Assembly: GCA_921293015.1 (NCBI GenBank)
Contig: OV121097.1
Location: forward strand, 14,190,924-14,254,923
From: Phorcus lineatus
Taxonomy: Eukaryota > Mollusca > Gastropoda > Trochida > Trochidae
Direction of reading: 5' to 3'
Length of the DNA: 64,000 bases
Within the stretch, counting starts at the first letter, position 1; each line of letters opens with the position of its first letter. The notes below the pieces were generated by a model, which was not told where the DNA came from, searched no databases, and saw only the letters and a list, made by a program, of their open reading frames with translations. Position numbers and translations under genes: made by a program. Of the stretch, positions 8,091 through 63,321 are shown piece after piece.

Positions 8091-9800
8091 TTAATCTTTG
8101 GTATGTTTCGATACCACCCCACTCAGATATTCAAGGGCTTCAGAATTACCAGTTACCAATAAAGCATCCAATAATTGTTTTTCAGTTCCACGTAGGTAAT
8201 CCATTGGTGTCCTTCCTTCAACATCAACAGGATTCACTTTGGCACCGTTGTTGATCAACAATTTAAGTTCAACCGTATTTGATTTTCTAAACATATCAAA
8301 AGGTGGTTTAAATGTATCGTAAATTTGTAAATTTCCACATAGAAAGTGCAGGGGTGTCTTCCCATCTTTGTCCATACAATTTATAACAGCGCCACCCTTT
8401 ATCAATTCCTGAAGTGCCATTTCGTAAAATGTTCCCATTTGATTTTCACAGAGATAATGGAGGGGTGTCTTGCGTTCTTCGTCAATAACATTGCAAATTG
8501 CCCCGCCTTTGATCAGTTCCTTAATTGTATCAACTTTAACTTTTTCCAGTAAGTTCCCACGTAGATAATGAATGTGTTTATCTCTTTCTCCGTGCAGAAC
8601 AAATTCTAGCATTCGATTTTTACAAATAAAGTGGAGAGCTGTCTTCCCCTCTAAATCACTCATATTTACATTAGCCCCACCTTCGACCAATGTCCTAATT
8701 GATTTAAAATTAACTCCACTCCCTAAACTTCTACAAAGATTGTGAAGAGGTGTCTTCCAATTGTTGTCCATAACATTGACATCAGCCCGACATTTAATTA
8801 GTGCATGAATTGGTTCGATATCATGTTCTGTCATTGGATTTTCACAAATATAGTGGAGAGCTGTCTTCCGATTCTTATCCCTTAGATTTACATCAGCCCC
8901 ACTGTTGATCAACAACTGAAGAGATTCAACTCTTAATATCCTACTTTTACATAGATAGTGAAGTAGTGTTTTCCCTTTTCCATCAACATGTTTGATATCA
9001 GTCCCACTGCTGATCAGTAAGTGAAGAGTTTCCGTGTTTTCTGACCCGCATCCAAACAAGTAATTTATTGGTGTCTTCCCTTCCTTGTCAATTTTATTAA
9101 TGTCAACTCCACTTTTGATCATTACTTGTAGAGTGTCAGTACTGTTTCTGTTTTGAAACAGATAGTAGAGTATCGTTCTCCCTTTTATGTCTTCATAATT
9201 GACATCAGCCCCACCGTTGATTAGCAAATGAGTAAGTTCAACATTTTCTTTGCTATCAAACGATGAAAAATAGAGTGGTGTATTTCCTTTTTCAGCATTT
9301 TCTCTTCTATGAAACAACAAATAATTGAGTGGTGTATAGCTGCTCTCATCAGGGAAATTGACATCAGCCCCACTCTTGATGAGGCACTCAAGAGTTTTAA
9401 CATTTGCCTTTTTATACCTACACAAATAGTTGAGAGGTGTCAACCCTTTGTCATCGACACTGTCAACATCAACACCACTCTTAATCAAGCACTGAACAAT
9501 TTCAGGTTTTACAGTTTTACTTTGACATAGGAAAAAGTAGCGAAAGAACTTCATGTTGGGGTCATCGTTCAATATCTCAGATGATTTATTGATGAATAAC
9601 TTGAGAAGATCAACATCGACATTCTGATGAGTACAAAGAATAGCTGTTACGGTCAGACCACAGTGACCATCAACAATGTTGATATCTGCTCCGAAGTCCA
9701 CGAGGACTCTCATTGCTGTGTAGTTTCGAGAATAAGCAGCCCTCAGAAGCATTGTTAATCCACAGGTGCCCTTAAGGTTGATACAAGGGGTGGTTCCTCT
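8091..9800 (-). CDS. Last exon: ankyrin-repeat domain
   Basis: One 1710-bp exon, entered in phase 0 from the ATPase exon (acceptor TTTCTTTCAG, first residues RGTTPCINLKG), ending KHTKD and TAA. It holds 12-13 repeats with the ankyrin signature: a KTPLHYLC-type helix start, an ELI(K/N)xGA second helix end, and DVN/DIN turns spaced mostly 33-45 residues. Several spacers are longer than the canonical 33, for example around FVLHGERDKHIHYL. One unit near GNTPLYFSSF looks like a partial internal duplication. The final 30 residues leave the repeat pattern. A first ATG in frame lies at 9750-9752, but the splice-linked start is better supported. Confidence 0.88.
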   Translation of the reverse strand, partial: RGTTPCINLKGTCGLTMLLRAAYSRNYTAMRVLVDFGADINIVDGHCGLTVTAILCTHQNVDVDLLKLFINKSSEILNDDPNMKFFRYFFLCQSKTVKPEIVQCLIKSGVDVDSVDDKGLTPLNYLCRYKKANVKTLECLIKSGADVNFPDESSYTPLNYLLFHRRENAEKGNTPLYFSSFDSKENVELTHLLINGGADVNYEDIKGRTILYYLFQNRNSTDTLQVMIKSGVDINKIDKEGKTPINYLFGCGSENTETLHLLISSGTDIKHVDGKGKTLLHYLCKSRILRVESLQLLINSGADVNLRDKNRKTALHYICENPMTEHDIEPIHALIKCRADVNVMDNNWKTPLHNLCRSLGSGVNFKSIRTLVEGGANVNMSDLEGKTALHFICKNRMLEFVLHGERDKHIHYLRGNLLEKVKVDTIKELIKGGAICNVIDEERKTPLHYLCENQMGTFYEMALQELIKGGAVINCMDKDGKTPLHFLCGNLQIYDTFKPPFDMFRKSNTVELKLLINNGAKVNPVDVEGRTPMDYLRGTEKQLLDALLVTGNSEALEYLSGVVSKHTKD

Positions 9801-12800
9801 CTGAAAGAAATGTATGTGAGATGTATTAGTCTCAAATCGGGCGGAACTTATTGTTATATCACAATCAGGAGAAATAATAAGATATATGGGAAAACTATAT
9901 CATACAAATTCAGCTACATAATAAATTTCGGGATAATGTAATACAGTTTTTGCCTAAATATAAGAGTTTGAAACATCTTTAGGAAATAACGAAAATTATC
10001 GACTGATACGCAATATTATTAATAATTATCGTCAATCAAACATAGATACATTGCGTCTTGAAATATGAAAATTGGACAAAATAGGTTCAAGGCACCATAA
10101 GTTTGATTCCTGAATGTTAATCTTAAAGAAAGAAAAGAGAAACAAACCAACTCATTTCCTACCTTCCTTTTCACTATCTCCTTCACAAGTCTCTCACAGA
10201 ATGTTATATCTTTAGAAATGTCATGTGTAAATATGGTATAGCATCCTTTCTCGCATATCTCAGGGATAAACCGTCCTACTAAAGCATTCATCACGTCGTC
10301 TTCTTGTTCTAAACAGATGTAGCATGTACTTGTTTCATTTGTTGTTGATTTGAATCTCACCTTCTGCAGAATTACTGACAGACTTGCATGTTTTACAACA
10401 AGAAGAGGATCTAATTCAGCTAAAACACTCAAGACACTCTCATAAACTGATGGGTGGGTGAACTCCCATTTTCCCCCAGCCGTCTTCTTGAGGTAACTGC
10501 CTGTCTGTTTAGCAGCTGTTTCTCTCAAAAATCGCCTCTTCCTTCCATCAGACACACTGTTAATGTTGAAGACTCCATCATTTTCTATGAGTGAGATGAA
10601 CAGATCCTCACATCCAGATTTGAATAACAACCTTGTAGTCGCATCCAAGAATTTCAGTGGAGTTTTAAAGAACTCTAGAAGCGTGATGTTTTGACCTCCA
10701 GCTCGTAACCCTGCATACATTTTACAACAAAGCGGGAAGCCGTGGGGTGTGTGCATTCTTGCAGCTTCCAACTTTGTCCTATAACTTTCTGGCACCCCCT
10801 TCGCCTGCATGTGATAATTGAGGATCTTATAGCGATCTTTTTCAACTCTTATGCTACTGAGATCCACTGATTTTGCGGATATAAGTTCTCCATACCGCTC
10901 GAGGTGATCCTTTGCGTCCTGTAATACATTTTTCCTGCTAACAAGTAGAACTCGTGTCAAGGGTTCCTGTGATCTTTCATGCGAATCCAAAATATCCCGA
11001 ACCAAAGTACCCCATAGACTCAAGGAAATGGGATCAAAGGTAAAAGCACCAAATATGTCATTCAACATGATAACACGATCCTCTTTGATCATTGAGATAT
11101 GATGATAATCCTCAGGAGTTTTGATAACATAGACTTCCTTCTTGTTAATGTTCATTAAGGCTTTCAAAACCAAATATGCAAGAGTAGTCTTCCCATCTCC
11201 AGCATTGCCTGTGATCGTGATCCATTTTTGCCCACCTTGCAGTTTCTCCACGAGGTTATCAACCAAAAAGATATGTATCATGCCTTCTGTTTCATCTCTT
11301 ACGTTCCTCTTGGTGAACTCTGTAAAAAACAACAAATAAAGCCTTCATCGAGCTCATAACTAATTTAACGTTTTGTTTGATAGACGATGTTTGTAAACAG
11401 AATCCTCTGTTTGTGGCTGTTTAACCTGACAGCATGATTTGCATTCTCACAGATGAGAGAGAAAAGTGAATAAGCGTGGGAAAGACAGATCCACCTAGAT
11501 ATATGAATGCAAATACTTCAAATGGTCCCTTTATGGTGCTCAATGTGGTTTTGTGTAATTTCAAAAAGTTATTTCAACATACGTACCTAACAAATGATTT
11601 CGATGGTCATTTTGTGTTCCAACTGTAAAGGAAAATAAGTCTATTTATAGTTTACACATGAATGTGACTTTTTCAACCTCACCTCAGTAAAGACGCCTAT
11701 TGTATGAAATGAAAACGGAGTAGATTTTAAACGTTTTCCGAAGTCAAGATTAACAGACAATAGTTGATCATAATTATCTGACATTGATCCTTTGTGATAA
11801 ATTGACAAGGCCGTATATGATAAAATGATATGTTTTTTACAAACATGATTCTACAAGGATAAAATAACAACATTCTTTATGAGGGAAAATTTCATTAGTT
11901 GAAAAAGCTATAAAACGAGAAACTGGAAATGCTAAAAATGAGAAACTGACACGGTTTTTATACAAAGGACTGGCAAGGTTCCATATGTTCCATTGTTCCA
12001 TATGATACATTGACAAGGCTTCATCACAATAACTAACACTATATTTTCATTGAGTAACCAGAGGTTGTTGAGAGAAGTGTGAAGTGTGGCTGTATATCAT
12101 GATAAATTGTCAATTTCCTAATGATTTACTGACAAGGTTCTCCGTCCTAAAGTGACAAGTTCTAGAAGATTCTTTGGCAAAATATGGACTTTTAAGTTCA
12201 ATGTGATAATCTTAAGAGGTTTTTTTCTGAACTGTCACTCGCATAGTTATGTTATCATAATGGGATTAATTATCTCATGCAACAATGACAATGTTCTAAA
12301 CATTTAACTGACAATTAACTGATAATATCGTGTTATGGTCAGCTTAAAAAGTAATATCATAAACTGATGATTTGGTATTATGATAAATTTAAAAGGTACT
12401 ATGATTAACAGATAAGTTGGTACAGTCTGATTAAAATCGACCCTGTTCCGAGGAATAAAAGTTTCAAAATATTGACTCTATCGAGATTCGAACTCTATCT
12501 GTGTAGGCCATCCTCTCCAGATAGATAGAGTTCGAATCTCGATAGAGTCAATATTTTGAAACTTTTATTCCTCGGAACAGGGTCGATTTTAATCAGACTG
12601 TAAGTTGGTATTATGATGAACCCAAAAGGTGATATGAATAACTGATAATTTGGTATTATGTTTAAGTCAAAAGGTAATAACATTAACTAATAATTTGGTA
12701 TTATGGTAAACTTAAAAGTTGCTATGATTAACTGATAATTTGGCATGACAGCAAACTAGGTAACATGATTAACTGATATTTTGGTGTGACGGTAAACTTT

Positions 12801-15800
12801 AAAGGTAATAGGACTAACTGATAATTTTGTATGATAGTACACGTACACGATAATACGATTCACTGATAATTTGGTATGAAAGTAAACGTCAAAGGTCATA
12901 AAAAAACTGATAACTTGGTATGAAAATAAACGTAAAAGATGATATGATTAACTGATAATTTGGTATGACAGTAAACTTAAAAGGTAATATGATTAACCGA
13001 GAAGTTGGCATTATGGTAAATCTAAGACGTAATATGATTGACTGATAATTTGGTATGACCGTCAACTTATAGAGTAAAATGATTAAATGACAATTTGGTA
13101 TGACAGTAAACTTAAAAGGTCAGATGATTAACTGAAAAGTAACAGTCGTAAACGTAAAATGACAAAGTTATAAGAGACGTTATTGTCATTCAAGTTACTT
13201 GATAAGCACTAATGTTGTAATTGTGGGGAACTGATAAAGTAACAAGATAAACTAAGACTTTTTCAGCCCATAAGACTTCTAAATGTAAATGTTGTTGAAA
13301 GGTTACAAGGCTTATTTTGATAAACTGATTATATCTTAATCACGTGACAGGGTAAAAATAATAAATTGACTTCATATTTAAATGACTATTTTCACGACCA
13401 TTCCTCGATTATCACACAAGATACAAAAGGTAATTGAAAATATTTGATTATCTCTTACCGTTTCCATTAACTATACCGATAACATTGCAGTTTCCTAATA
13501 TTGTTGAATTGCTGGGGCCATCAACTGAAAATGTTCATAAAACATTGTATAAGATTAATGGAATTTGTTATTAAAGGCATATTGAGATCCGTCAACAAAA
13601 ATATGATATCTTAACATTTTACACATGTATCACAAACAGATATACTGTATTTCCTCAATTACAACCCTGGCCTCTAGTACAACCCGAGTCCAGGTAATGG
13701 GATCCTGAATATATAAATTATAATCCGGGTATAACACATACACAGCTTGACATTGAATAGAATCCGGGGTGCGAAATAGAACCCCGAGGTTGTATTCGAG
13801 GAAATTGTTTCTAGGATATATGTTCGGTCACTGTGTCGATACCCTTTTATGGTGAAAGTTTATAAATTAAACTACATTTAAGTTTTTTTAGATCCCCCCA
13901 CGAATCACAAGCTTTCTAACACCTTAGAGTTATCTCCCCTGCTATGACGTCACGCTTCTCTCAGTTATGGCCGCCGCCAACATCGAGCTATGAGCAAGTT
14001 TGAACTTTAAAGCTTTTTAAACCTTCTTTTGATCCTCATGTAAACAAACCAATGGCCACTGAAAACACGAAATGACGGCGTTCGTCTCGATCGACTGCCG
14101 GGTACAAACTTCATCTTTTCGAGGCGGAAAAGGCGACCTCAAATCCCGCAACTCCGACGTCGGCGTCTGGCGCCAAAACCGCGTTTGTCAATTCCGAAGA
14201 GAAAGAAGATGTTAGAGACTGAAATCATACAACTGCAAGGTGAGATCCAGTGCCTTCACCTCGAACGTAAGCTGTCGCAATTGCAAGAGGAAAAATGTTG
14301 TCTCCTTCACCCCGCTTCTGTGAATGTTTGTGATCAACCCACAAATAACGCGGGTCGCCATTTTGCTGTCGATGAATCTGCAAACAGCCCAGAACCGACA
14401 TCGGTAGAAACAACCCTTACCCCTTAAACACAAGGTATGAAATCATCGAAAGTTCTACGAATATGTGACTTTGTCTGGGATTATCCTGTAGAAATGAGTC
14501 ATGAATCGGTTGAACGTAGGTCAGGTGACAAACCCCCTTTCGACGGGTTACGAATATCATGGGAACACTTATTAAGGAAGGCAAACTTCGGGGTGAATCA
14601 ATCGAGGGATATTTGAAATACAGTACACCTGGAAAAGTGTCCTTCAATATGACACCGAGTACCGTCAGAGGCAATTTGATGATGGTTCCCCAAACTCACG
14701 TAACCGTGGACCTTTTCTCCCTAACGGCGGGGAAATTTGCAGGCGTCATAACAATGAGAATTGTTTCAGTGGTGACTGTTGTCTTGCATACAACTGTTCC
14801 ATATGTTTCTCTGCACACCACATTGCGAGAGCTCACGACACACCTGGGATAACCCGTGCCCAAACCAACGCCGGGTACGCACACCCACCTGCAGGTGTGC
14901 CAAAAAACTACTTACTCAGGCCAATCAAACCCCATCACTAATGAAACATCCTAATGCTGACACCTTTTGCTTTGATTACACTTCATGGACCAATTTACTT
15001 CCTCAAGATGATCCAGACAGAGAATTCATTTAAGATGGTGTAGAAAATGGCTTCAAAATTATTGATATTGATTCTGTTCCTGTTATTGGTGTTCCTGGTT
15101 TTTTTTAAAACTATAATTCTTCACTAAAGCACAGAGCAGCTGTTGAATTACAACTTGGTTAGGAAATTGTGCATGGAAATTATGTGTTAACAGACTGCCA
15201 ACCAGTGATCTGTAGTGCGTTCCCACATGGACCTTATTTGGCAATAAAAATAATTACACCGAGTTGTTACCTGGCCAAAGTAGATTTAAGCAAAGCGTAC
15301 AGGACAGCGGGACTGCATCCATCAAATTATGCCTTTACCCGATTGCACTGGCAATTTACGGGAGATAAACATTTGACCTACATGGATGATACTAAACTTC
15401 CTTTTGGTGCCGCTAAAAGCCCGCTAATTTTCCAAACCCTGACATCTGCGGTGTGTAGGATTATGTGGTCCAAGTATGGTATTGATGTTATAGCTTACCT
15501 TGATGACTTTCTTATTATATCTGATACATATGCCCACTGTTTGCAGAGTTTCTTTTTATTATGTCAAACACTTAGGCAACTGGGCTTTCGCATAAACTGG
15601 GGCAAAGTGGAATGATCAGCTCAGAGCCTTGTATTTCTGGGCACTAGAATTGACACTGTTGCCTTGAACCTATCCTTGGATCGTGTGAAACTGCTAGATT
15701 CGCTTTCGCTAGTGGATACATTCCTGAGACGCGAACGAGCGTCAAAATGACAACTACAGTCCCCTGCAGGTAGCCTTAACTGGGCCTGTGCTGTTATCCA

Positions 15801-17446
15801 TAGTGGTCTGGAGAGTTATTGATGTTAAAGGTATTCTAAAACATGCATCTCACAAGACTCTGTTGAATGAAGACTTTCGTAGTGATCTGTCCTGGTGGAA
15901 ACATTTCTTGCTTGCAGATCGATCATGGATAAGAGACTTGTTACCTGTGTTCAAACTGACGCATGTTGTGAAGGGGATGGTGGTGTTGTAACTCTGACTA
16001 CTTCTATGTAAACTGGTCGCTCGATATGCCTTTAATAAGTGGATGGCATATAAACTACAAGGAAATTATGGCAATGATTTGGGCTATTTTTAGGTGGGCC
16101 CCTATTTTTCAGAACAAGAGAGTAACTCTAATTCGTAACTGATATAGTCACTGCCAAATGTGTTATGAACAAATGAACGTCAAGGTTCAAACCAATAATG
16201 CCATTTCTGAGAGCGATGAACTTTATCAGTGGTGTGTACAACTTTAAGCTCAGCGCTCGCTGCCTCCCAGGTAAAGACAACTAACTTGCTGATACCTGTT
16301 TGCGCCTACATGAGAGAGGAAAGTTTGTCATGTTATATAGACTTTTATCATTGCAAACTCTGAGTGTGACTGAGCTACTTTCTCTGATGTCCCCCGGTTT
16401 GTGTATTACAGGTGGCCCAAGAAACCACCTGACCCTGTGGAGCAAAGTTCAGTATTACGTCGACCAAGCTTGGACAGTGAGGACAAATAAGACCTATCGG
16501 ACACACAAGACAACATACTTTGATGTGCTCCATACTGAAAACCGTAACACTTCTTCCTATTAGAGCGTTTTAGAGCCTCTATTTGCTATCCAAGGTGCAA
16601 GTGTCTTGACTTATCGAGTATTTACGTCGTTTTTTCTTATCTTTTACCGCTTTTCATATCATTAAAAGTAAAGTGATAGTTTATAAATTTAACTACATTT
16701 TAGTTTTTTTAATGCCCCCCGAATCACAAGCTATATAACACCTTAGAGTTATCCCCCCCTGCTATGGCCGCCGCCAACATCGAGCTATGAGCAAGTTTGA
16801 ACTTTTAAGCTTTTTATCCCACCCTTCCCACCCAGTGGCAATTTAATCTGCTGTCAAAACCTCCATTTGACATTTATGATGTTCCAGTCTGATTAAAATC
16901 GACCTTTTCTCCGAGGAATAAAAGTTTTTAAATATTAACTCTAGCGGGATTTGAATGTATTCTATCAGCGGCTATCCTCTCCCCAAAGGTCTGAAAGCAT
17001 CCTCCTTGCTCACATGTTCTTACACCAGTTTAGCCCAGACAAAACCTAGTCATTAGCGGACCAATCACATCATCCCGTTTAAAATAACGATAGCGGCGTT
17101 AAAGGTTACCGAATGGTAAACGGGAGTTACTTCCCCCTAGATACTCATACTGAAAGCGTTTGCCGCTGTCATTGTGATTGGCTAGTTGAGATTGCGTCAG
17201 AACGTGAGAGCAAGGAGGGTGCTTTCAGATTGTTGTGGAGATGATGGCACCTGGTAGGAGACGTTCGAATCCCGCAATACAGAACTACAGAAATGCAACA
17301 AACGAACAACTTAAAAAAGTTATTGTATTCTTTAGCAACATACCATTTATGATTTGAGTTGTCAACTTCCCTTTAGCTCCAGTATTGTTCTCTACACCAG
17401 GCTCCATTATAGGTTGTTCCTCATGGTTCTTCCCTCCCTCGGCCAT
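8091..17446 (-). CDS. STAND-type P-loop NTPase with ankyrin repeats (NLR-like), five coding exons
   Basis: Exons in transcript order: 17344-17446 (ATG), 13459-13524, 11587-11622, 10163-11319, 8091-9800 (TAA). They sum to 3072 bp, an unbroken frame of 1023 residues plus stop, and every junction has GT/AG ends in matching phase. Order: a short acidic leader starting MAEGG; an NSTI/GN-rich segment; a short GTQNDHRN linker; an ATPase domain with Walker A GNAGDGKT near residues 106-113 and a Walker-B-like strand ending LNDIFG near 150-159; then 12-13 ankyrin repeats. The ATPase resembles the STAND NTPases common in mollusc and other invertebrate genomes. By analogy to NLRs the ankyrin part may sense or bind a ligand and the ATPase may switch by oligomerising; no function is shown here. 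An alternative, equally in-frame 5' end exists at 18545-18635 plus 18040-18102 (1018 residues). Confidence 0.8.
10163..11319 (-). CDS. STAND NTPase exon
   Basis: A 1157-bp exon between acceptor TTTTTTACAG and donor AAG/GTAGGA. It opens EFTKRNVRDETEGM, then WITITGNAGDGKTTLAY carries Walker A (GxxGxGKT). RVIMLNDIFGAF follows in the Walker-B/sensor position with an unusual Asn where the first acidic residue is often found. Later come LLVSRKNVLQDA (sensor-like strand), and a helical region with GFPLCCKMYAGL, which matches the winged-helix GxPLA/C position of STAND proteins. The TGGKWEFTHPSVYE stretch also fits the WHD-like region. Reading on past the donor gives a tail without domain features, which supports splicing at 10163. 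Confidence 0.85.
11587..11622 (-). CDS. 36-bp micro-exon encoding GTQNDHRNHLL
   Basis: Acceptor ACTTTACAG-like end (CTTTACAG), donor G/GTACGT. It begins with two bases and ends with one, matching the phase-1 ends on both sides. It links the NSTI segment to the E-F-T-K start of the ATPase exon. Very short, so it rests on phase and on joining two coding exons without a stop. Confidence 0.7.
   Translation of the reverse strand: MEHKMTIEIIC
12300..13150 (+). repeat. Minisatellite, period about 45 bp, in an intron
   Basis: Units of the form ACTGATAATTTGGTATGACA plus GTAAACTTAAAAGGTAATATG recur about every 45 bp (for example near 12647, 12690, 12736, 12778, 12824, 12870, 12914, 12957, 13002, 13048 and 13093). 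The array lies in the intron between the 36-bp exon and the NSTI exon and is interrupted by a fold-back element at 12422. A shorter related array lies at 17560-17760. Confidence 0.85.
12422..12601. mobile_element. Perfect fold-back element, 79-bp arms, 8-bp target duplication
   Basis: Arms 12422-12500 and 12523-12601 are exact reverse complements (79 of 79 by eye) around a 22-bp loop. The ends read ACAGTCTGATTAAAATCGAC. The flanks carry AAGTTGGT on both sides (12414-12421 and 12602-12609), an 8-bp duplication of the minisatellite unit it entered. Eight bases is typical of hAT-type insertion. Related longer or truncated copies occur at 16884, 48335 and 57163. Confidence 0.88.
13459..13524 (-). 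CDS. NSTI-type exon, inner copy (B2)
   Basis: A 66-bp symmetric exon (phase 1 in, phase 1 out), acceptor CATTTTCAG and donor AACG/GTAAGA. It encodes DGPSNSTILGNCNVIGIVNGN. It is a diverged copy of the exon at 18040-18102, sharing the NSTI start and the GN ending. Being symmetric, either or both copies could be included without breaking the frame. Confidence 0.72.
13650..13808. mobile_element. Short inverted-repeat element (copy 1)
   Basis: The left end TTTCCTCAATTACAACC is mirrored by GGTTGTATTCGAGGAAA at the right end; the inside repeats CCTCTAGTACAACCC and GAACCCCGAGG. A diverged copy sits at the same place of the second 5' block (18212-18352), so the insertion predates the tandem duplication. 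Confidence 0.65.
13858..16822 (+). mobile_element. Decayed DIRS/Ngaro-like (tyrosine-recombinase type) retroelement
   Basis: About 145-175 bp of related direct sequence flanks the element: 13858-14031 and 16678-16822 share AGTTTATAAA, CGAATCACAAGCT, ACACCTTAGAGTTATC and GCCGCCGCCAACATCGAGCT. Between them, in order, lie a coiled ORF from 14185, a Cys/His-rich stretch (CFSGDCCLAYNCSICFSAHH) like a gag zinc region, a reverse transcriptase with YLDDF, an RNase-H tail (ARCLPGKDN) and the start of a recombinase-like core-binding region (RTNKTYRTHK). Direct rather than inverted termini fit Ngaro better than DIRS-1. Stops and shifts show it is dead. Confidence 0.75.
15169..16563 (+). pseudogene. Broken reverse transcriptase / RNase H of the DIRS-like element
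   Basis: The open part 15169-15615 has VDLSKAYRTAGLHPSNYAF, KLPFGAAKSPLIFQ and the catalytic AYLDDFLII. The frame then meets TGA at 15613 and continues with family-like sequence (LVFLGTRIDT, RERASK) to another TGA at 15748. A frame change follows before NEDFRSDLSWWKHFLL (from 15788). At least two stops and one shift make it non-functional. Similarity is to DIRS-type polymerases known from animals and slime moulds, judged by motif only. Confidence 0.78.
16884..17280. mobile_element. Truncated copy of the CAGTCTG-ended transposon
   Basis: Starts CAGTCTGATTAAAATCGACC like the fold-back element at 12422, then AGGAATAAAAGTTT. Inner inverted segments are visible: AAGCATCCTCCTTGCTC near 16990 against GAGCAAGGAGGGTGCTTTC near 17208, and GCGGGATTTGAA against TTCGAATCCCGC. 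The mirrored outer end is missing on the right. It lies inside the first intron of the inner 5' block and is absent from the outer block. Confidence 0.65.
17344..17446 (-). CDS. First coding exon, inner copy (A2)
   Basis: ATG at 17446 (context GGAATGG, good for initiation) gives 34 residues beginning MAEGGKNHEEQPIMEP and ends N then G/GTATGT, phase 1. It is clearly paralogous to exon A1 at 18545-18635: shared MAEGG, IMEP, VE, GA and GK and the same donor. No good pyrimidine-rich acceptor in the right phase lies upstream, so a first exon is preferred over an internal one. Confidence 0.65.
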
Positions 17447-17559
17447 TCCTGTCTCTTCCTGTTATGGACTGTCAATTTTTTGTGATAAACTTAAGGGTTT
17501 TTTCCTTAACTGTCAATGACTTAGTTCAATTATCAATAACCGATTCATGATCTCGTGAA

Positions 17560-17760
17560 ACACCGATGAGGCTCTTTTTAGTCAACGGACATGATAACAT
17601 GATGAACTTATAATTTGATATTACGGTAAAGTGAAAATGTAACATGATGAACTTATAATTTGGTATCACGGTAAACTGAAAATGTTACATGAAGAACTGA
17701 AAAGTTGCTGTTATCGTAAACTGACAAGTTAAATGAAACATCACTATTATGCAAGTGTCA
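17560..17760 (+). repeat. Short tandem repeat related to the 12.3-13.1 kb minisatellite
   Basis: GATGAACTTATAATTTG followed by GTAAACTGAAAATGT(T)ACATGA recurs two to three times at about 50 bp. It occupies the same relative place beside the outer NSTI exon as the larger array does beside the inner one. Confidence 0.6.
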
Positions 17761-18039
17761 TGATAAACTAAAAGGATGCCATTATGATGAACTATCATAG
17801 TAACCCACTAAACGTATAATTTGTTTATGGTAAACTGATAAGACTAGTTTGAGCCTGTAATCCTCTACTCGCAAATAATGATGAATAATGACAAGGTATA
17901 TTTTGATAAACTGGGCATAACTTAATCAAGTTACAGCGTAACAATAATAAATTGACTTCAAATTTTAATGATCATTCCTTGATTATTACAAACGATACAA
18001 TAGATAACTGGCATATCTAAATATTTGATTACCACTTAC

Positions 18040-18102
18040 CGTTCCCAATTACATTGCCAACAACATAGCAATGTTCTATTGTTGAATTGCTCGGATCTTT
18101 GG
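18040..18102 (-). CDS. NSTI-type exon, outer copy (B1)
   Basis: A 63-bp symmetric exon, acceptor CACTTTCAG, donor AACG/GTAAGT, encoding KDPSNSTIEHCYVVGNVIGN. It is homologous to 13459-13524. Phase 1 at both ends makes A1-B1-micro-exon-ATPase a continuous frame (1018 residues). Confidence 0.68.
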
Positions 18103-18211
18103 CTGAAAGTGTTCATTTTATATAATCAATTGAATTTGTCACCAAAGGCATTTTTATATATTTCAACAAAGATATGATATCTTAATATTTTACACATGTA
18201 TCACAAACAGA

Positions 18212-18352
18212 TATACTGAATTTCCTAAAATATAACTTTGGCCTCTAGTACAACCCTATAGGCTCCTAAAAAATACAATACTCGATAAAACATACACAAT
18301 TTGACATTGAAGAGAACGAAAGGTGCGAAAAGAACCCCGAGGTTGTATTCGA
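18212..18352. mobile_element. Short inverted-repeat element (copy 2)
   Basis: Counterpart of 13650-13808 with the same internal CCTCTAGTACAACCC and CGAGGTTGTATTCGAGGAA ends, more decayed on the left. Its place between B1 and A1 mirrors the copy between B2 and A2. Confidence 0.6.
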
Positions 18353-18544
18353 GGAATATATACGTTCTGTCACTGTTTAAGGGGACAATTCATGAGATGG
18401 ACAATTAAATCTGCTGTCAAAACCTCAATTTGGTATTTATCATTTTCTAACTTAAAAAATGTAAAATCAAAAATATTTATGAGAACTACAAAAGAACAAC
18501 AAACAGGAAATGTTAAAAAGTGATTGTATTCTGTAGCAACATAC

Positions 18545-18635
18545 CATTTGTCGACTTCCCTTCAGCTCCAATATAATCCTCTACATCGGGCTCCATTATA
18601 GAGCGTTCCGCGGGGTTCTGTCCTCCCTCGGCCAT
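18545..18635 (-). CDS. First coding exon, outer copy (A1)
   Basis: ATG at 18635 (context AGAATGG) gives 30 residues beginning MAEGGQNPAERSIMEP, ending N then G/GTATGT, phase 1. It splices in frame to B1 (18040-18102) and, in principle, to B2. The 65-bp minisatellite begins directly upstream and is built from this exon's own start region. Whether A1 and A2 are alternative promoters of one gene, or A1/B1 are left from a partial second gene, cannot be told from sequence alone. Confidence 0.62.
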
Positions 18636-20160
18636 TCTTGTCTCACGGGTCAATTGTTTAAATGTAGGTACTCTGCAGGGTTCTGTCCTTCCTGGGCCAT
18701 TCTTGTCTCCCAAGAAAGATGTCTAAATTTTGTTATTCCGGCTATTCTTGTCTCTTGGGTAAAATGTTTAAATGAACTAATTCTGCAGATTTCTGTCGTC
18801 CCTCGGCCATTGTGTCTTTCAGGTCTAATGTTTACACTTCCTTATTCTGCAGGGCTCTGTCCTCCCTCGGCCATTCTTGTCTCACGGGTCAAATGTTTAA
18901 ATGAAGTTATTCTGCAGGGTTCTATCCTCACTCGGCCATCTTGTCTCCTAGGTCTAATGTTTAAATGTGGTTATTCTGAAGGTTTCTGTCCTCCTCGGCC
19001 ATCTTGTCTCCCAAGTCTAATGTTTAAACGTAGTTATTCTGTTGGGTTCTGTCCCCCCTGGGCCATTCTTGTCTCCCAGGTCTGATGTTTAAACGTAGTT
19101 ATTCTGTTGGGTTCTGTCCCCCCTGGGCCATTCTTGTCTCCCAGGTCTGATGTTTAAACGTAGTTATTCTGTAGGGTTCTGTCCCCCCTGGGCCATTCTT
19201 GTCTCCCAGGTCTGATGTTTAAACGTAGTTATTCTGTAGGGTTCTGTCCTCCCTGGGCCATTCTTGTCTCCCTTGTCTGATGTTTAAACGTAGTTATTCT
19301 GTAGGGTTCTGTCCTCCCTGGGCCATTCTTGTCTCTCAGGTCTAATGTTTAAACGTAGTTATTCTGTTGGGTTCTGTCCCCCCTGGGCCATTCTTGTCTC
19401 CCAGGTCTGATGTTTAAACGTAGTTATTCTGTTGGGTTCTGTCCCCCCCCCTCGGCCATTCTTGTCTCCCAGGTCTAATGTTTAAACGTTGTTATTCTGT
19501 AGGGTTCTGTCCTCCCTGGGCCATTCTTGTCTCCCAGGTCTGATGTTTAAATGTAGTTATTCCGTAGGGTTCTGTCCTCCCTGGGCCATTCTTGTCTCCC
19601 AAGTCTAATGTTTAAACGTAGTTATTCTGTTGGGTTCTGTCCTCGCCGGGCCATTCTTGTCTCCCAGGTCTAATGTTTAAATGTAGTTATTCTGTTGGGT
19701 TCTGTCCCTCCTGGGCCATTCTTGTCTCCCAGGTCTGATGTTTAAATGAAGTTATTCTGTAGGTTTCTGTCCTCCCTGGGCCATCTTGTCTCCAAGGTCT
19801 AATGTTTAAACGTAGTTATTCTGTAGGGTTCTGTCATCATTGGGCCATCTTGTCTCCCAGGTCTAATGTTTAAAGGTAATTAGTGTGTAGGGTTCTGTCC
19901 TCCCTGGGCCATTCTTGTCTCCAAGGTCTAATGTTTAAAGGTAATGAGTGTGTAGGGTTCTGTCCTCCCTGGGCCATTCTTGTCTCCAAGGTCTAATGTT
20001 TAAAGGTAATTAGTCTGTAGGGTTCTGTCCTCCCTGGGCCATTCTTGTCTCCCAGGACAAATGTTTAAATGAAGTTATTCTGCAGGGCTCTGTCTTCCCC
20101 CGGCCTTTCTTGTCTCACGGGTCAATTGTGTAAAAGAAGTACTTCTGCAGGGCTCCGTCC
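18636..20160 (-). repeat. Minisatellite, about 24 units of 65 bp, derived from the exon A1 start region
   Basis: On the minus strand each unit reads about GAGACAAGAATGGCC(C/G)AGG then GAGGACAGAACCC, a TACAGAATAACTACG segment, and TTTAAACATTAGACCTGG. The same order (TTTAAACAATTGACCCGTGA, GAGACAAGAATGGCCGAGG, AGGACAGAACCC) spans the start codon of exon A1. GGCCAT landmarks fall every 64-66 bp from about 18690 to 20100. Units at 19060-19780 are most alike; edge units are degenerate. Most units still carry an ATG GCC start followed within about 10 codons by TAA. The long plus-strand frame at 18654-19085 is a by-product. Confidence 0.92.
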
Positions 20161-23100
20161 TGCCTTGACTTCTTATTAGGCGATACCTTTGATAATAGAA
20201 GTGGATAAGTCACCTGATTGGTTTCATATTGCAATCAACCGAAGTCATCAACGAATAAATATTTGAAATCTTAACAGTGCACCACTATGTGTTTCAAATA
20301 ACCAACAGTTAGGTTGCTTTGAACTCCTTGAGTTTGAGTGATGATACAGATATGAAAAACCTCAAATTAAATTATAACACTTAGATTGTAAGACAATAAA
20401 TACGCCTTTACTGTTTACCGTTAACTTTACGAAAGACACTGGTGGAGAATTGTGTCAAATTGAATAGAAATGGGGCCACTATTTGCCGAGTTACCTCCTA
20501 CAATGACGACATCCAGAAACCTAAAACGTACTTCCTCATTACAACCTTGTGCGTGTTATGTCGTTTTCTCACTCCACAATGTCGATATAAGATTCACCCA
20601 TATATCTGAATCTCAACACTCACCCGATAGAAACAGGATCTGTTCTTAGCAGGTTCAAATTTATCATCATTTGAATGAATTTTGGTTAGAAAGATCAAAC
20701 CGCTATATGGCGCCCATTTGCTCAGAAAAACATGTCTGGCATTTATGATTTGGATCTATTTATATCTCAATTATCTCTTTTGTTAAATACAAAAATTATG
20801 AATTTATGAAGAACATCCATGTCAACATCCACAAACAGATATATTCGCTAAATTATTTGAATATTTATTTGAATTCAGTTGGTTGAATTTTCTGGTTTAA
20901 TTGACCATGTTAACGGGTCACTGATCAAAGGAAGGTAACTCTGCTTATCTCATTTGACTAAATTTAAGTTGCGCTTTCAATTCCATTTGTATTGTAGATT
21001 AAATTGACACCCGGATTAGAAAGAATTTCACGTTGAATAATAAATTTTTAATTATATTGGGTGATACAATAGTAAACCAAGGGATATGATGTGATATTGT
21101 ATAATGATATACTAGTAACTTTTCTTTAAAATGATGCATTAAGATGAAAAGAGATTGTTTTCTATTAGTACTCTGTTAAATATTTTAATGACTTTAGTGG
21201 TGGCATATTTTGATAATTCCTCTGGGCTAGACGTTTTTGTTTAAATGAATCAGAAGTGAACAAATGTGAGTAGTTATTTGCTCTAAAGATAAAGGAGATA
21301 ATGCAGGACCTTGCCGAACAACCAATATAGTACTTATGGGATATGGGATATACTGCACTACAAAAACTCATAATGAAGACCGTACAGAAGAAAAGCTTAG
21401 TGAGAATAAACAATTACTAGAGAAAACTATAAAGCACTCCCCTTTTCTTTAATTAAATGTGTCTTTACATTATACTGTAGTGATAATAATATATATCTTT
21501 TTTTTAAATCGCTGACGTCAAGACCTAACTAGGAATTAGTAAAACATATGACATGGTGAAGAAAGATGTTTGTATTTCTTTAAAGTAAAGTTCACATCAT
21601 ATCCTGGTATAGAATCAGGTTCAAGTTAGCTTGAATGTCGCATTGACACACAAACTACTCTTGACGTTAAAAATGTCGGAGGAAGGACATAACCCTGCAG
21701 TAGTTATAAATTGAAGAGTCAAGTAAAATAAAGGAATAGTATTCCAAACTCTATTAAACAGATCCTGTGTCATTTTATCTGTACATGTTGTTTTAAGTCA
21801 TTAGGATTCGAAATGATCAAGAAATACAAAAGCTATATTGGACATCCTCCGATACACAGGGATATGTATTGCTAAAAAAAATACGTCCTAGGTAAAAGGT
21901 TCGTTCACTGACAACTATAAGTCTTTTAGATATATATGACGATAAGTAATGGGTTTTAATGAACGAGGGTTTTTTATACCTAGCACCTGATTTTTCAGCA
22001 ATACAAACCTCTATGCTCTAGTCTACTAGATGCGCAGGGTTATTGCCCATCTTGCTACTGTGGCGTCCCCTGTTCTTCCACTGCATATGAAATGTCACAC
22101 ATTGTGATTGTATACCTATATCATTTAATATAAGATCATGCATAATGTTTTTTTTCACACACCCCCCCCCCCCCCCCCCAAAAAATGTGAAATGTTTTTA
22201 TACCATTTTGTACATTTTCGTCTGACGAAAAAATACGTCACCGCTTAACCCTGGTGGCTTTCGTTTTACATGATTGAAAGACTACGAGGGGGAATTACAT
22301 TTTGGATCTTTTTAAAAACGCATTTACTCACAAATATGACGTCTACATCATCAATTAGATAAGACCATAAACCAAGTTCTCCAAACCAGTATTAAAATGT
22401 ATTACAGCACTTTTTGAAAACAAATTCTTTATCTTGAAGTCTCCTCCCATTTAATGCAAGATATGTTTACTATAGCGGGTAAAATATCTAAATAATGAAC
22501 CCAAGCGAAAACTGCATCCGGCCATTTTAGTTTGAAAACCTTTTAATCATTCGAGGAAGGCTTCGGGTGGCTTCGTTTCGTTTCGACTCGTTTAAGAAAT
22601 CCTTATACCGATTAGAAATAATGTAATAAAACTTTTCCTTTTCGCAAGATTCTTTTTTTCCCCTAAAACCCGTGTCTAACAATGGAATAGACATGCAGAT
22701 TGAATGATTATCATAGTAAAATACTACAATTGTGATACCTAGAAGATCGAAACGAATTCGTACTTTAATGGAATAAAGCTCGTAAAACCGTAACAGAAAA
22801 CACTAATGCATATAATCAGTTCCTCCGCATGGGTAAGATATGTGATTAAAATATAATTTCTATCCACAAAATTTGAAACTTCATGAGATCTTTGGCTAAT
22901 ATTTACAAAAGCAGGTGTTATGATGAACTAAACCCACACTATACCAAAACTTTATGATTAACACGAAAATTATATAAGTTATCATTTTAAAATCATTGTA
23001 AATCGTAAGTTTCTTTTAATTTGCACTGCGCCAGTGAAAGGAATACCTAAGGAATGACACTTGTCCTTACATATATCCAACCACAATCATCACTCTGCGG

Positions 23101-24720
23101 GTAGACTATAGTTTAGTCTAAGAAATATTTCAATAATTTACTATTCCTTCATCCATAACATCTTTTCTTTGGGCTCCTAATTTCATATCTAGAATTGCTG
23201 AATGTGACCCTAGACTGTCTTAAAGGCTCCTTGTTATATACACAGTCATAAAGCAGGACTACGAAATGGGCTGCTACGTGAGTTGTCGGGGTCACGTATG
23301 TCAAAGGTCATCAATGGTATGTCATTCTATCGATATTAATTGAATGTTGCTAAAAGTTATGCTTCCAGTGGTAATCGATTCAGTATAATGAAAATATAAA
23401 GGTATTAAGGTGCGTATATGATCGAAAACCGAACAGTCTATCATGACTGACGTGCGTTATTTCGCCAAAGGTTATTTTGTAAACTTATCTAAAGCAGAAA
23501 TAAGAACAGAATGAAGTTGATAGTGTTTAATGAGACGTCTGATTTCAGCTTCTGACACATGTAAGGTTGAAAACTCTTAATTGCTTATGTATACTTAACA
23601 AAAAAATATAAGGACCATCCAAAATTCAATAATAAAGCATCATCTGAATTTGTATATGTCAATGTGCAGTTTCAAGAAAAAATAATTGATGAAAAAATTA
23701 CTGATCGTAATCAGACGGGACTATTTCTCCTCATAACAGTCAATTGAATTCATTAGATGTAATATCTGCTTCTTCAAATCTATTTTTTTTCAACGTATCA
23801 TTTTACGCATCGATCTTCTTTTATTAAGTCTGTATCATTTCTTGCAAACTGAGTCTCTGAGCGAGGGACACAAATACACAATTTCAAATGCAAAGGGAGT
23901 ATATTTTCCTTCACAACAAAGTAGGTGGTTGAACCGTGGTTCGTGTCCTAAACTTGCTTTAAGTTCGTGTTTTACTTCGTACGAAAATCTTCTATAATCG
24001 GAGATCTAGATATGATTACCAAAATAAATATGTTTTGTAGAGAATCGCTTTGTGTATTGATATTAAAATAATACTTTATGCCTTTGCGGTTTTAGACAAA
24101 TCTATGATCTAAAAAATGATGCAATGAAAGTTAAAATGAATTAAAAATCAATCCTATATTTTTGTGGAAACGAAATGCAAGGGTACATTCACGTTATTAC
24201 AAGTAAGTGATTAGTATATTCTTATATATTGTCAAATAAGTAGAAAAAAGCGCCTTTTTTCATGTCATTTTCCTTTCAAAAAACTTTTCAATAATTCAAC
24301 GATTAAAAATATATGATGAACAAATACTATATATTGTTTTCTAGAATTTGGGTTAATTATAAGATAAAAACTGCCCTAAATACACCAAATTTGAGAAAAA
24401 CTTTTGAAAAATAATTATATGATAAATGCACTTTTTATAATACTGCAGTTTATGGTCTTTAAAAGTAGGTAACAAAATATGTAAGTTCATCGTAGATCTG
24501 TAATTGCTTTATTGGCGGCCAAGTGCTCTACCGCCTAAACATAGCACCTGTCAACAAGAATGACTCATTGTTCACACGAGTTACCCGCCCTTGTTGTCAA
24601 ATAGTCATTAGAATCCTCCGAAGCTTGTTAAAAGTTATACTGCCAAATTCATAAATGCTAAGTCAATCACGATGTCTTATTTAACATCCTTAATATCTAA
24701 AAGGTGTTGTCGTTATGTCG
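20161..24720. other. Intergenic stretch, no gene recognised
   Basis: Separates the minus-strand STAND gene from the plus-strand DENND1 gene (divergent arrangement). No exon with family similarity was found; the 82-residue minus frame at 21165-21413 has no recognised motif. It contains a poly-C run at 22162. Upstream promoter elements of the STAND gene could lie in its left part. Confidence 0.5.
22162..22179 (+). repeat. Poly-C tract of 18 bases
   Basis: Run of 18 C between CACACA and AAAAAA. Simple repeat in intergenic DNA. Confidence 0.95.
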
Positions 24721-24747
24721 CTTTTGATGAGTTTCTTATCGGACAAA

Positions 24748-24906
24748 GTGCGTCACGTGACTATCAAACATGGCGGACGAGGGTGTACTTCCGCTGCTAT
24801 CTTGTTGATCTTTTTGACAAGTTAAATTCCTGCATATGATGCTCCTAATATAGAACTATACCTTGCATTCCTTTTTTTGCCGGGTTCATGACTTGACTTT
24901 CATGTG
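24748..24906 (+). promoter_or_regulatory. Probable DENND1 promoter and 5' leader
   Basis: GCGTCACGTGAC (24750-24761) is an E-box/CLEAR-like palindrome, and CAAACATGGCGGAC (24766-24779) resembles the YY1-type motif found at many animal transcription starts. The local base composition is richer in GC than the surroundings. No TATA box was seen at a suitable distance. The start codon of DENND1 follows about 130 bp later, so transcription probably begins within this stretch; this is inferred from motifs only. Confidence 0.5.
24770..24808 (+). other. Possible upstream ORF of 12 codons in the DENND1 leader
   Basis: ATG GCG GAC GAG opens a short frame reading MADEGVLPLLSC and stops at TGA (24806-24808), about 100 bp before the main ATG. 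Its ATG lies in the YY1-like motif, so it is translated only if transcription starts upstream of it. The context (ACAATG-like, AACATGG) is favourable. Confidence 0.35.
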
Positions 24907-27900
24907 ATGGGATCTCGTGTCAGGTATGATGTTAACTTTTACTAAGGTACAGCTGCTTCCGCGTTAGTTGTACAATGCAAGACCATTTTCACTCGATCGA
25001 ATCAATGACATTTTGTTATCAACACCCACCTGTTGTAAGATTAATATTGCTTTTCAAGATTAAATATTTATGAAAAAATTGCGTTATATTTACTATGAAT
25101 AATGTATTTATTTCAAAAGTCTAAGGCTTCAATAATTATTGCCTCAAGTAGACTTTGTAGGTCTGTCTTTTCACTTTTGAAGGGTATTCCCAATGAATTA
25201 ATTGCATGGAACTTTAATGTATGTAGATCATACAAAAACGATTAAACTGCAAACCATCTAAGTTAAAAATGAAGTATTCATAATGGAGCCATTTCGTAGA
25301 ATAAATATGTGTTGACTGTTGAATAGTTATATGCTTGAAATTTCTTGACATGAATTTATTTATGCCATTTAAGTACTTTAGTTTCTTGATCGTTGTCATA
25401 GGGCCTATTGCATGATATATTGTTATAGGTTCAATAGGGGGGCTGTCAAAGTTACATAATGTCGAGAGATCAATTTCACCCACATAATGAGGTGCTAAAA
25501 TGCTGTTATCAAACCAACCAGAACAGTCCATGTTGCTCAGTCAACCATGAAATAAAACTGAGAAATAAAAAGACAGAAACTTAAAGAATAGTTAAGATTG
25601 AGTGTTGGTAAGTGATAGTACTTATTTAATAACCTGCCCATTCCATAAAATGAATATGTTACTAATTCAAAAAGTGTTCAGAGTTCCATTGTTGACCATG
25701 CTGACCAAATTACCCTAACAGCTCATTAACTATAACACAACTAATTAATCAACTGCAACAGGTTAATTATGCCTTTAGGTGCAAATACATCTAAACTGTG
25801 ATAACTTACTTGAATTATATCTCTCATTAGTTGTCAGTTATGAATATTTGTCAGTACAGTATGTAGAATACACATGTAGAGCACAATGGTTAGAGTATAG
25901 TGGTTAGAATGCTGGCCTCTCATGCTTAAGGCCCAGAAGAAGACACAAAAAATGTGTGACATGGGTCCATCTGCAATATGTGCCAATCATGAAAATCTTG
26001 GCTCCCTTTCCCAAGCATTACTCGCTTATCATGTATCACTTTATTTCTGATATATATGATGTTAACAATTTAAAAATATAGAAATACACTGTGTTTAATT
26101 TCTATTCATTTACAATAAAGCATTCTCAGGAAATTGTTTAAATAGATATTTTGCATTTCCTTTCTTTTGCAATTTGAAATGTAAACAAGTTAATTTTTAC
26201 AATTTCTTATAAATTGAATTTTTAATTTTTTTTATTGTGTTTAGTTATCTACAACATTCATAGTTGAAAATGTATGCAATTTGACCTTTATGTGACGTTA
26301 TATGTGGAAGAGAATGTATACTATATTAATCCAGTCATGCCTACCTGAAATTGGTCAATGTAAATACTCAGAATGTATGTGAAATGACTATGAATGGTAC
26401 CCTCAGGGGGGGCGGGATAGCGCAGTGGTTAGTGGTTCGAATCCCGCCAGGGGCTCGGCAACTTTGTCTGCAGTAGAGAACTGTTCTACACGCAGTAAGG
26501 TTTGGGTGCAATGCTACACTGAATTTTAGCGCATTACACCCATGGTTTGCTAGTTCCAGCCGATGCTTGCAGGTTTCACCGCAATGCATGGCCACAATGG
26601 TGTCGCGGGCTTTCTCCCTGCATTAATATTAGCAGCGGTGATATAAGTTAAATACTCTTGAAAGCGGCGTTAAAACCCAGTTCACTCACTCACTATGGTA
26701 CCCTCAGAAAAGAAATAAGGTGATAAAAATAAAGTTATCTATTCATTGACTTGCTTGATAAAAATTTTATTACACCAGAGCTCCTTTAGTATCTTGTATG
26801 GTAACAGCAAGTTTTCTGTTATTTTGCAGAGAGAACCCAGGAAAACTGTTCGAAGTTTTTGTAGAAATAGCAAAGCCAGACACAGGGCAAGGTAAGATCT
26901 TTTATATATTCATTGAAGCTGTCTTCATTTTTTCTATCAGCTCTTGTTTATAAGAAAGTCAATCTGAAACATTATTTTCATAGGATTTCATAAATGGTAA
27001 ATTAAAGTGACACAGAGTATGTTTCATGAATTTTGGATGTGGCTTAAACAGAGCCAAAATATAATAAAACTTGAGTTAAGTTCAAATTGGCTATCTAAAA
27101 TTGCATCGTTATCTCTTAAATGGCAAAATTATGACATTTTCTTGTTTTGATTGTAAATGAAAAGTAGCTATATCAATGTTATGAAGTCGAAATTCGGCGT
27201 CCAATTTATAGTGTACATTAGTTAAATGAACTTCTAAGCAATACCATCCTACATTCCTCGTTTATTCTACTATGAATAAGTTTCCAAAATAACGTTTGCG
27301 ACATTGCCGTGCACCATTGTCCATTTTTTTATCATGAGTCTCAACTTTGTTTCTTGTTTATCGTCACTATGCTCACTGATAAGCATTGAGCTGTTAATTT
27401 TCAGAAACAACCACTACTTGTTGATGAAATAATACTTTTAGGTAGTTTGACATATTTGACCACAATTTGCCCCTTTAATGCAGAATATCAGAAAATTCTT
27501 ATACCAACATTTTTAAAAATTTGCTTCTTCCCTTCCTAAGACTACATATGATTAAAATAAATGGGTTTTTTTTGTTGGCCACGCATCACCTAACTGTAAA
27601 GTGATTTCATCATAGGAAAGAAAATGAACCCAATACGATTGCCCTCGTAGGTAAGAAATTTTATTATTTGTGTTACATGTATTCATATTGACAGGTAAAT
27701 AGGTAATAACATATATTCTATGTTTCAGATGCATTTATTCTGCAGCAGTATCCCCCAGATTACGATGAAGGGGTACGTTCATTTCACAAAGTACCTCTTT
27801 AAATACATTTAATTTCTTCTTGAACATATAATGTACAATTTTATTACGAAACAAATATTTCCCTTCAAAGGAATTTGTTTACATTTGAGGTTGAATAAAT

Positions 27901-56939: not shown

Positions 56940-57163
56940 TAGGGCTCTCTTTTTCAGACGATCTGACACAGGTCAAGTGTAGACAAAACCAAGTCACGCA
57001 GACCAACCACATCATCTAGTTTTAAATAAGGATGGTGGCGATCAAGTTAAAGATTTATTTCAAAGAATTATTTGCCCCTTGCTACTGAAAAGTTTTAATC
57101 ACATTAAAGTCAATATTGTAAAACTTTTATTCCTCGGAACATGGTCGATTTTAATTAGACTGA
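56940..57163. mobile_element. Copy of the CAGTCTG-ended transposon, right end kept
   Basis: Ends ACTTTTATTCCTCGGAACAT then GGTCGATTTTAATTAGACTG, matching the right arm of the element at 12422-12601. The left end is not evident; ACCAACCACATCATC and GATGGTGGCGATCAAG resemble the interior of the 16884 copy. Confidence 0.6.
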
Positions 57164-63239: not shown

Positions 63240-63321
63240 CTGTAGCAGCGTAAAGTAGTGAAAGAATAAGGAGATATTTTCAGAGAAAATAATTAATGGA
63301 CTCATGGTAGGTTTAACTTGG

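Follow-up and report, generated by a model that had tools for sequence, protein, structure and literature searches.

The window, by which we mean the whole 64,000-bp stretch of DNA analyzed, contains a minus-strand gene of an immune type whose exon chain was modeled from the sequence (Table 1). Adjacent frames of this gene match nSTAND3 (E 5.6e-18) and Ank_2 (E 3e-52) in Pfam, which places it in the nSTAND3-ankyrin family, and in the model the two frames would be joined in one transcript. When compared with solved structures, the NTPase frame produced weak matches, of which the best was to UvrB (E 0.0025). The 5' part of the model comprises two modules, each with a first exon (A1 or A2) and a second exon, and it is at A1 that the tandem array described here is located.

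Table 1 The array, the exons of the sequence-based gene model, and related first exons
Feature	Position	Strand	Remarks
Tandem array, 23 units of ~65 bp (GAGACAAGAATGGCC...TAA...TTTAAACAT...)	18645–20116	(-)	Tandem Repeats Finder (TRF), unit cutting
Partial outermost unit, other DNA beyond	20117–20165	(-)	Tandem Repeats Finder, unit cutting
Coding part of exon A1 (MAEGGQNPAERSIMEPDVEDYIGAEGKSTN/G), from which the array unit derives	18545–18635	(-)	Donor GTATGT, phase 1
Exon 2 of the A1 module (AKDPSNSTIEHCYVVGNVIGN)	18040–18102	(-)	AG acceptor, GTAAG donor
Exon A2, paralogous first exon without start-derived array (MAEGGKNHEEQPIMEPGVENNTGAKGKLTTQIIN)	17344–17446	(-)	
Exon 2 of the A2 module (VDGPSNSTILGNCNVIGIVNGN)	13459–13524	(-)	
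Candidate small exon (VGTQNDHRNHLL)	11587–11622	(-)	Phase 1 to 1; gene model
nSTAND3 NTPase exon	10022–11319	(-)	Stop-to-stop frame 10022–11344, first bases precede the AG acceptor
Ankyrin-repeat frame	8094–9899	(-)	
MAEG(G/N)(Q/K)NP first exons	C39:4982393, 5004177, 14539511, 14554209; window 18635	(-)	Five nSTAND3 genes

The second exons of the A1 and A2 modules encode CYVVGNVIGN and CNVIGIVNGN, respectively. These peptides are reminiscent of the amyloid or RHIM-type signaling motifs of NLR proteins; a Pfam search with the joined N-terminal models, taken up to E 5, found neither a RHIM nor an amyloid family. At A2, ACAG stands just 5' of GA-ATG (17446, minus strand), an arrangement that would keep the frame if A2 were an internal phase-1 exon. 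The intron between the first and second exons of A2 contains a reverse transcriptase frame (15163–15612, plus strand; RVT_1, E 3.5e-14), which is flanked by direct repeats at 13852–14019 and 16673–16816.

The array at exon A1

Tandem Repeats Finder reports a 65-bp unit present in 22.0 copies at 18740–20165 (88% matches, score 1971). Both the array and exon A1 read on the minus strand. Cutting at GAGACA yields 23 units upstream of A1 and the partial outermost unit, with exon A1 itself as the 24th member; the array directly adjoins the exon (ATG at 18635), and unit 22 is shortened to 45 bp. The unit corresponds to A1's own segment from about -35 to +30, its flank part being the DNA just 5' of A1. 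The match between unit and exon spans GAGACAAGA-ATG to codon 10 (GAA), after which the array passes into TAA and flank and the exon continues coding. In a BLAST-type comparison, A1 alone (from -9) matched the array 20 times at E 1e-3 or better; the strongest match covers 39 bases at 92% identity (E 1e-12), so that chance is excluded. The sequence-only reading, which named no strand, had described about 24 units of 65 bp directly upstream of A1, each made of the exon's 5' border and first codons, and these results bear out both the extent of the array and its derivation.

Neighboring units are 97–98% identical within units 2–4 and 13–17. The corresponding identity is 80% at the outer edge of the array and 42–80% at the A1-side edge, from unit 18 onward, where the values of 42 and 46% involve the truncated unit 22. 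This pattern is that of local duplication with decayed edges, as in an ordinary minisatellite. With head-to-tail units in the size range of 10–100 bp, high mutual identity and growth by local duplication, the array qualifies as a minisatellite, a type of repeat that is common in the window: 11 arrays picked out of the Tandem Repeats Finder output, the array at A1 included, cover 6274 of the 64,000 bp.

Most copies were said to retain ATGGCC followed by TAA within about 10 codons. ATGGCC is indeed intact in 21 of the 23 units, the exceptions being unit 1 (AAGGCC) and unit 22 (ATAGCC). The description of the stop holds for the 17 of the 21 mini-ORFs that have no more than 11 codons (14 of 10 codons, one of 11 and two of 3) and fails for four longer ones (13, 16, 22 and 35 codons); the stop codon is TAA in 17 cases, TGA in three and TAG in one. 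Every mini-ORF has A at -3 and G at +4, as does A1 itself, and all 21 end before the real A1 ATG, none overlapping the A1 start. Between a stop and the next ATG, 32 nt is the commonest spacing. TAA sits where the exon-like part of the unit (...GAA) meets the flank part, and it may therefore stem from the duplication junction alone. On the opposite strand, a 182-aa open frame (18537–19082, plus strand) that is probably not coding runs through part of the array.

Genome-wide occurrence and paralogous first exons

The genome searched comprises 958 Mb in 74 contigs, with the window on contig C39; its gene content points to an animal, perhaps a bivalve. The counts given here are lower bounds, and very common words were skipped by the search. 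A 141-base query composed of the A1 start, one unit and a bit of the next gave at least 24 matches, and all 24 fell in the array, A1 or A2. A 29-base start pattern allowing up to 3 mismatches gave at least 17 matches, all at the locus (15 units, A1 and A2), with none for the reversed control. Within these lower-bound searches, all 24 and all 17 matches thus lie at the A1 locus, and the array is linked to exon A1, as had been claimed, rather than scattered as a dispersed repeat. The unit pattern had no match in IMG/VR viral contigs. In the window, Rfam gave no match at gathering thresholds and no tRNA was found.

Comparison of the NTPase frame with the genome gave 95 scored matches of 297 candidates, the window's own gene included. 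The large nSTAND3 family is clustered on few contigs (C25, C41, C39, C29, C19, C15 and C11). Flanking DNA was compared for the five closest paralogues, all of which are on C39. Four of them have a first exon in common, which starts with MAEGNKNP in two and MAEGGQNP in two; the fifth (L060) has no such start within the 10 kb examined. The degenerate pattern MAEG[x][QK]NP has five matches in the genome and none in the control, and each match is located upstream of an nSTAND3 exon on the same strand, 1.2–7.3 kb away. Five nSTAND3 genes share a conserved N-terminal octapeptide. The A1 start is identical to that of two paralogues at 26 of 27 bases and to that of the other two at 22 of 27; the NTPase exons of the first pair have only 47–48% protein identity to the window gene. 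The coding part of each of the six aligned first exons ends with AAYG, and GTA follows.

Sought at other STAND-gene starts, as the sequence-only reading had suggested, the unit is absent upstream of the four paralogous starts, where 2.3–2.5 kb gave no BLAST match to array sequence at E ≤ 1. The flank of A2 is likewise without a start-derived array; the 2.5 kb upstream of this exon contain a 45-bp array followed by the array of A1. Of A1, A2 and the four paralogues, six starts in all, A1 alone has a start-derived array. Other short repeats occur upstream in three of the four paralogues, including a 1.9-copy 65-bp repeat about 1.4–1.5 kb upstream of P14.55 that is unrelated to the array unit by BLAST. 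Because the same start and exon layout are found in array-free paralogues, the exon seeded the array and is the older of the two; by these comparisons, the exon is old and the array private to A1. At 21669–21704 on the plus strand, there may be an inverted copy of this segment in a decayed state (ATGTCGGAGGAAGGACATAACCCTGCAG; E 0.006 by nhmmer and 9e-4 in another comparison to the A1 start). It reads MSEEGHNPA and has an in-frame TGA soon after.

Matches between the two modules were found at 13030–13834 and 17595–18376 (70% alike over 838 bp) and at 12183–12419 and 17463–17707 (68% alike); what lies upstream of A2 is therefore similar not to the array but to the sequence downstream of exon 2 of the A2 module. 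Between 20101–26000 and 11301–18650, the only similarity is a single match of 22 bp, formed by the edge of the array. Of the two copies, A1 lies outermost and starts with MAEGGQNP, A2 starts with MAEGGKNH, and we infer that A1 retains the original 5' flank. The dN/dS ratio between A1 and A2 is 0.62 for exon 1 and 0.37 for exons 1 and 2 together, estimates that are weak because they rest on 51 codons.

A1 and A2 differ at six sites within 39 shared bases, and the units have the A1 state at five of these. All four paralogues have the A1 state at positions 6 and 31, two of the four at positions 23 and 24, and none at position 34. The A1 state at position 32 is found in none of the units: 16 have T, like A2 and the four paralogues, six have A, and one has a gap. 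Dating the array by these sites was therefore rejected, since the paralogues share the A1 state wholly at two sites and partly at two. Only position 34 supports a putative origin of the array on the A1 side after the split of A1 and A2.

Conservation within the unit and competing explanations

Of the 23 units, 21 have an intact start codon, where triplets average 17.5; counting ATG itself, 21 of the 63 triplets are kept equally well. For the ATG–TAA pair, both codons are intact and in the same frame in 17 of the 23 units (pair mean 12.6), a value reached by five of 33 equally spaced pairs, ATG–TAA among them. Both are thus better preserved than the average of the unit, though not to an outstanding degree.

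Changes in longer blocks were assessed by column permutation, with P values that serve as a guide only, as the units are not independent; 22-unit figures are those with the truncated unit 22 dropped. ATGGCC shows 3 changes where 13.7 are expected (23 units), or 1 where 10.8 are expected (22 units), and its quietness has a P of 0.02 at the fixed place and of 0.5 anywhere. The flank 5' of each ATG, TTTAAACA, is outside the mini-ORF and is also retained in A1's own flank; it shows 2 changes against 18.2 expected with 23 units, the P anywhere being 0.025 with 23 units and 0.098 with 22. The corresponding values are 0.08 and 0.47 for GAGACAAG, and 0.02 and 0.16 for a 14-base block across the ATG, GAGACAAGAATGGC. 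The unit thus has a quiet part in non-coding sequence and another around the ATG, but chance is not firmly excluded for either. Either of the blocks TTTAAACA and GAGACAAGAATGGC could mean constraint and, because both are quiet, a cluster of promoter motifs and a role for upstream ORFs (uORFs) remain rivals.

Across codons 2–10, the change is 0.03 at codon position 2 against 0.11 at positions 1 and 3 (nine columns per position). This is a coding-like hint for which a passenger reading alone does not account, and the bias could be inherited from few ancestral units. A hairpin with the ATG in its loop (CCUGGG/CCCAGG) was considered and rejected, as four short pieces (one unit-type sequence, the A1 start and two array pieces) fold near their shuffles, with z of -0.20, 0.46, -1.01 and 0.33. 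For a 495-nt stretch, folding gave z -2.21, and one of 100 shuffles was as stable, which would weigh against a passenger reading.

One alternative is that the array acts as a homotypic promoter or enhancer cluster, in which each unit would supply a transcription-factor or initiator element (for example, TTTAAACA) and the whole would form a strong or repressible element of A1. The position of TTTAAACA among the least changed blocks, outside the mini-ORF, and its retention in the A1 flank agree with such a function, for which the tandem-repeat enhancer of IFNB1 (PMC13373173) and the MSY2 start sites at DDX3Y (PMC3039753) are precedents. The quietness of TTTAAACA fades when the truncated unit is left out of a set of units that are not independent, however, and the ATG-spanning block is about as quiet, so that the signal is not limited to non-coding bases. 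The four paralogous starts, moreover, are without any such array. We hold this explanation to be tentative and, on the whole, unlikely. The sequence-only reading suggested, among other effects, translational tuning: a transcript starting upstream would carry up to 21 short uORFs that repress or tune A1 according to unit number. The start context, the lack of overlap with the A1 start, the commonest spacing of 32 nt and the reduced change in ATGGCC and its surrounding block all fit this proposal, but the conservation is matched by as many triplets and pairs as given above. If 50–80% of ribosomes are assumed to pass each uORF, 21 of them would leave 5e-7 to 9e-3, which would turn A1 off rather than tune it. 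Short spacing also disfavors reinitiation after short uORFs; the same source describes, in addition, a DENR–MCT-1 reinitiation route that is independent of distance (PMC5972666). A uORF ladder thus seems quite improbable, and what stands of the earlier interpretation is an amplified exon start, linked to its exon, with a unit that matched this locus only in the lower-bound searches, whereas the tuning of translation is conjectural.

The reverse derivation, in which a pre-existing minisatellite gave the gene its start codon, has hardly any chance of being correct. It would explain the homology between array and exon start, but the four paralogous genes and A2 share the start and the exon layout without an array, and in most units a stop codon stands at the point where the exon reads on; we rejected an exon born from the array on account of the array-free paralogous starts. 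A far-reaching variant, which we rate as very unlikely, is that the gene, as that of an immune receptor, multiplied its own promoter together with the start segment, alleles then differing both in the number of transcription starts and in that of strong short uORFs. Were this true, the number of decoy starts in an mRNA would depend on the start unit and range from 0 to 21, which would give one member of an expanded receptor family an on/off setting that is heritable and mutates fast.

We favor, with a probability of about 0.65, a locus-private minisatellite that carries its mini-ORFs as passengers and is most likely located in a 5' intron, the 5' flank or the promoter. It would have begun when an old first exon, specific to its subfamily, had the region of its start codon (about -35 to +30) duplicated in tandem, and repeated local duplication would have enlarged and homogenized the array to 23 units directly 5' of the gene. 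Start codons, strong context and short ORFs would have been carried along because they are inside the duplicated segment, and TAA would have been created at the duplication junction. Situated in the promoter, 5' flank or 5' intron, the array would not be read as a full-length leader. As 21 strong uORFs, mostly 32 nt apart, would block A1, transcripts of A1 are expected to start in or after the last units, or to have the array spliced out. Any effect on the gene would be exerted through the choice of transcription start or through spacing. The array probably varies in length between individuals, a difference in copy number that we extrapolate from one assembly.

Related systems and other features of the window

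The thymidylate synthase repeat (TSER of TYMS) is located near the start codon, inside the mRNA leader, and differs from the A1 array in having 2–3 copies of 28 bp and a unit that is not known to contain a start codon. TSER is a repeat of variable length in a 5' region, as the A1 array probably is, with a 28-bp unit (PMC7766907). The MSY2 minisatellite upstream of primate DDX3Y, whose repeats supply testis transcription starts, is also a tandem repeat upstream of the start codon of a protein gene, and its likeness to the A1 array extends to a unit of about 100 nt that was amplified in some lineages only (PMC3039753). MSY2 lies 885 nt upstream in 3–4 copies, whereas the 23 copies of the A1 array abut the exon; its transcription starts are demonstrated, whereas the A1 array is described here from genomic DNA; and the A1 unit contains the gene's own start codon, whereas the MSY2 unit is not so described in the available part of that paper (PMC3039753).

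The MORC3-repressed tandem-repeat enhancer of IFNB1, which has 45 PU.1 sites, resembles the A1 array in being a tandem repeat close to an immune gene, in which one short motif recurs many times. It is an enhancer with demonstrated PU.1 sites that the available text does not describe as exon-derived (PMC13373173), whereas the A1 array is exon-derived. GCN4-type leaders likewise have several short uORFs before the main ORF, but these are few and their regulation is shown, in contrast to the 21 near-identical ones at A1, which are known from DNA (PMC5972666).

Among the titles and abstract openings listed from open-licence PMC text, none described a minisatellite that had grown from a start-codon segment, and PMC3045353, PMC3899988 and PMC8195603, where searched by term, offered no closer precedent. 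What is unusual here is that the repeated unit includes the start codon of the gene itself, which recurs 21 times in a strong context. The array provides a clear case of a minisatellite traceable to its seed, which is the start codon of the adjacent gene and which the array-free paralogues show to be older. It also serves as a warning that ladders of strong mini-ORFs may form passively and are not in themselves a mark of translational control. Should the array set transcription starts, the locus would allow a direct test of repeat length varying the expression of one member of an expanded receptor family.

Several further features were observed in the window. A histone-fold frame at 62965–63279 (minus strand; Pfam Histone, E 6.1e-11) resembles the H3 or CENP-A type. 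A 346-aa proline-rich frame at 50538–51575 (plus strand), with no Pfam match, is presumably like the tail of DENND1 proteins. An element at 12405–12600, 16867–16982 and 57105–57162 occurs in direct and inverted copies, is palindromic at about 12423–12600, and is perhaps a small mobile element. Finally, an 18-bp array of 5 copies at 43276–43365 (plus strand) lies inside an open frame and reads as KELNGN repeats.
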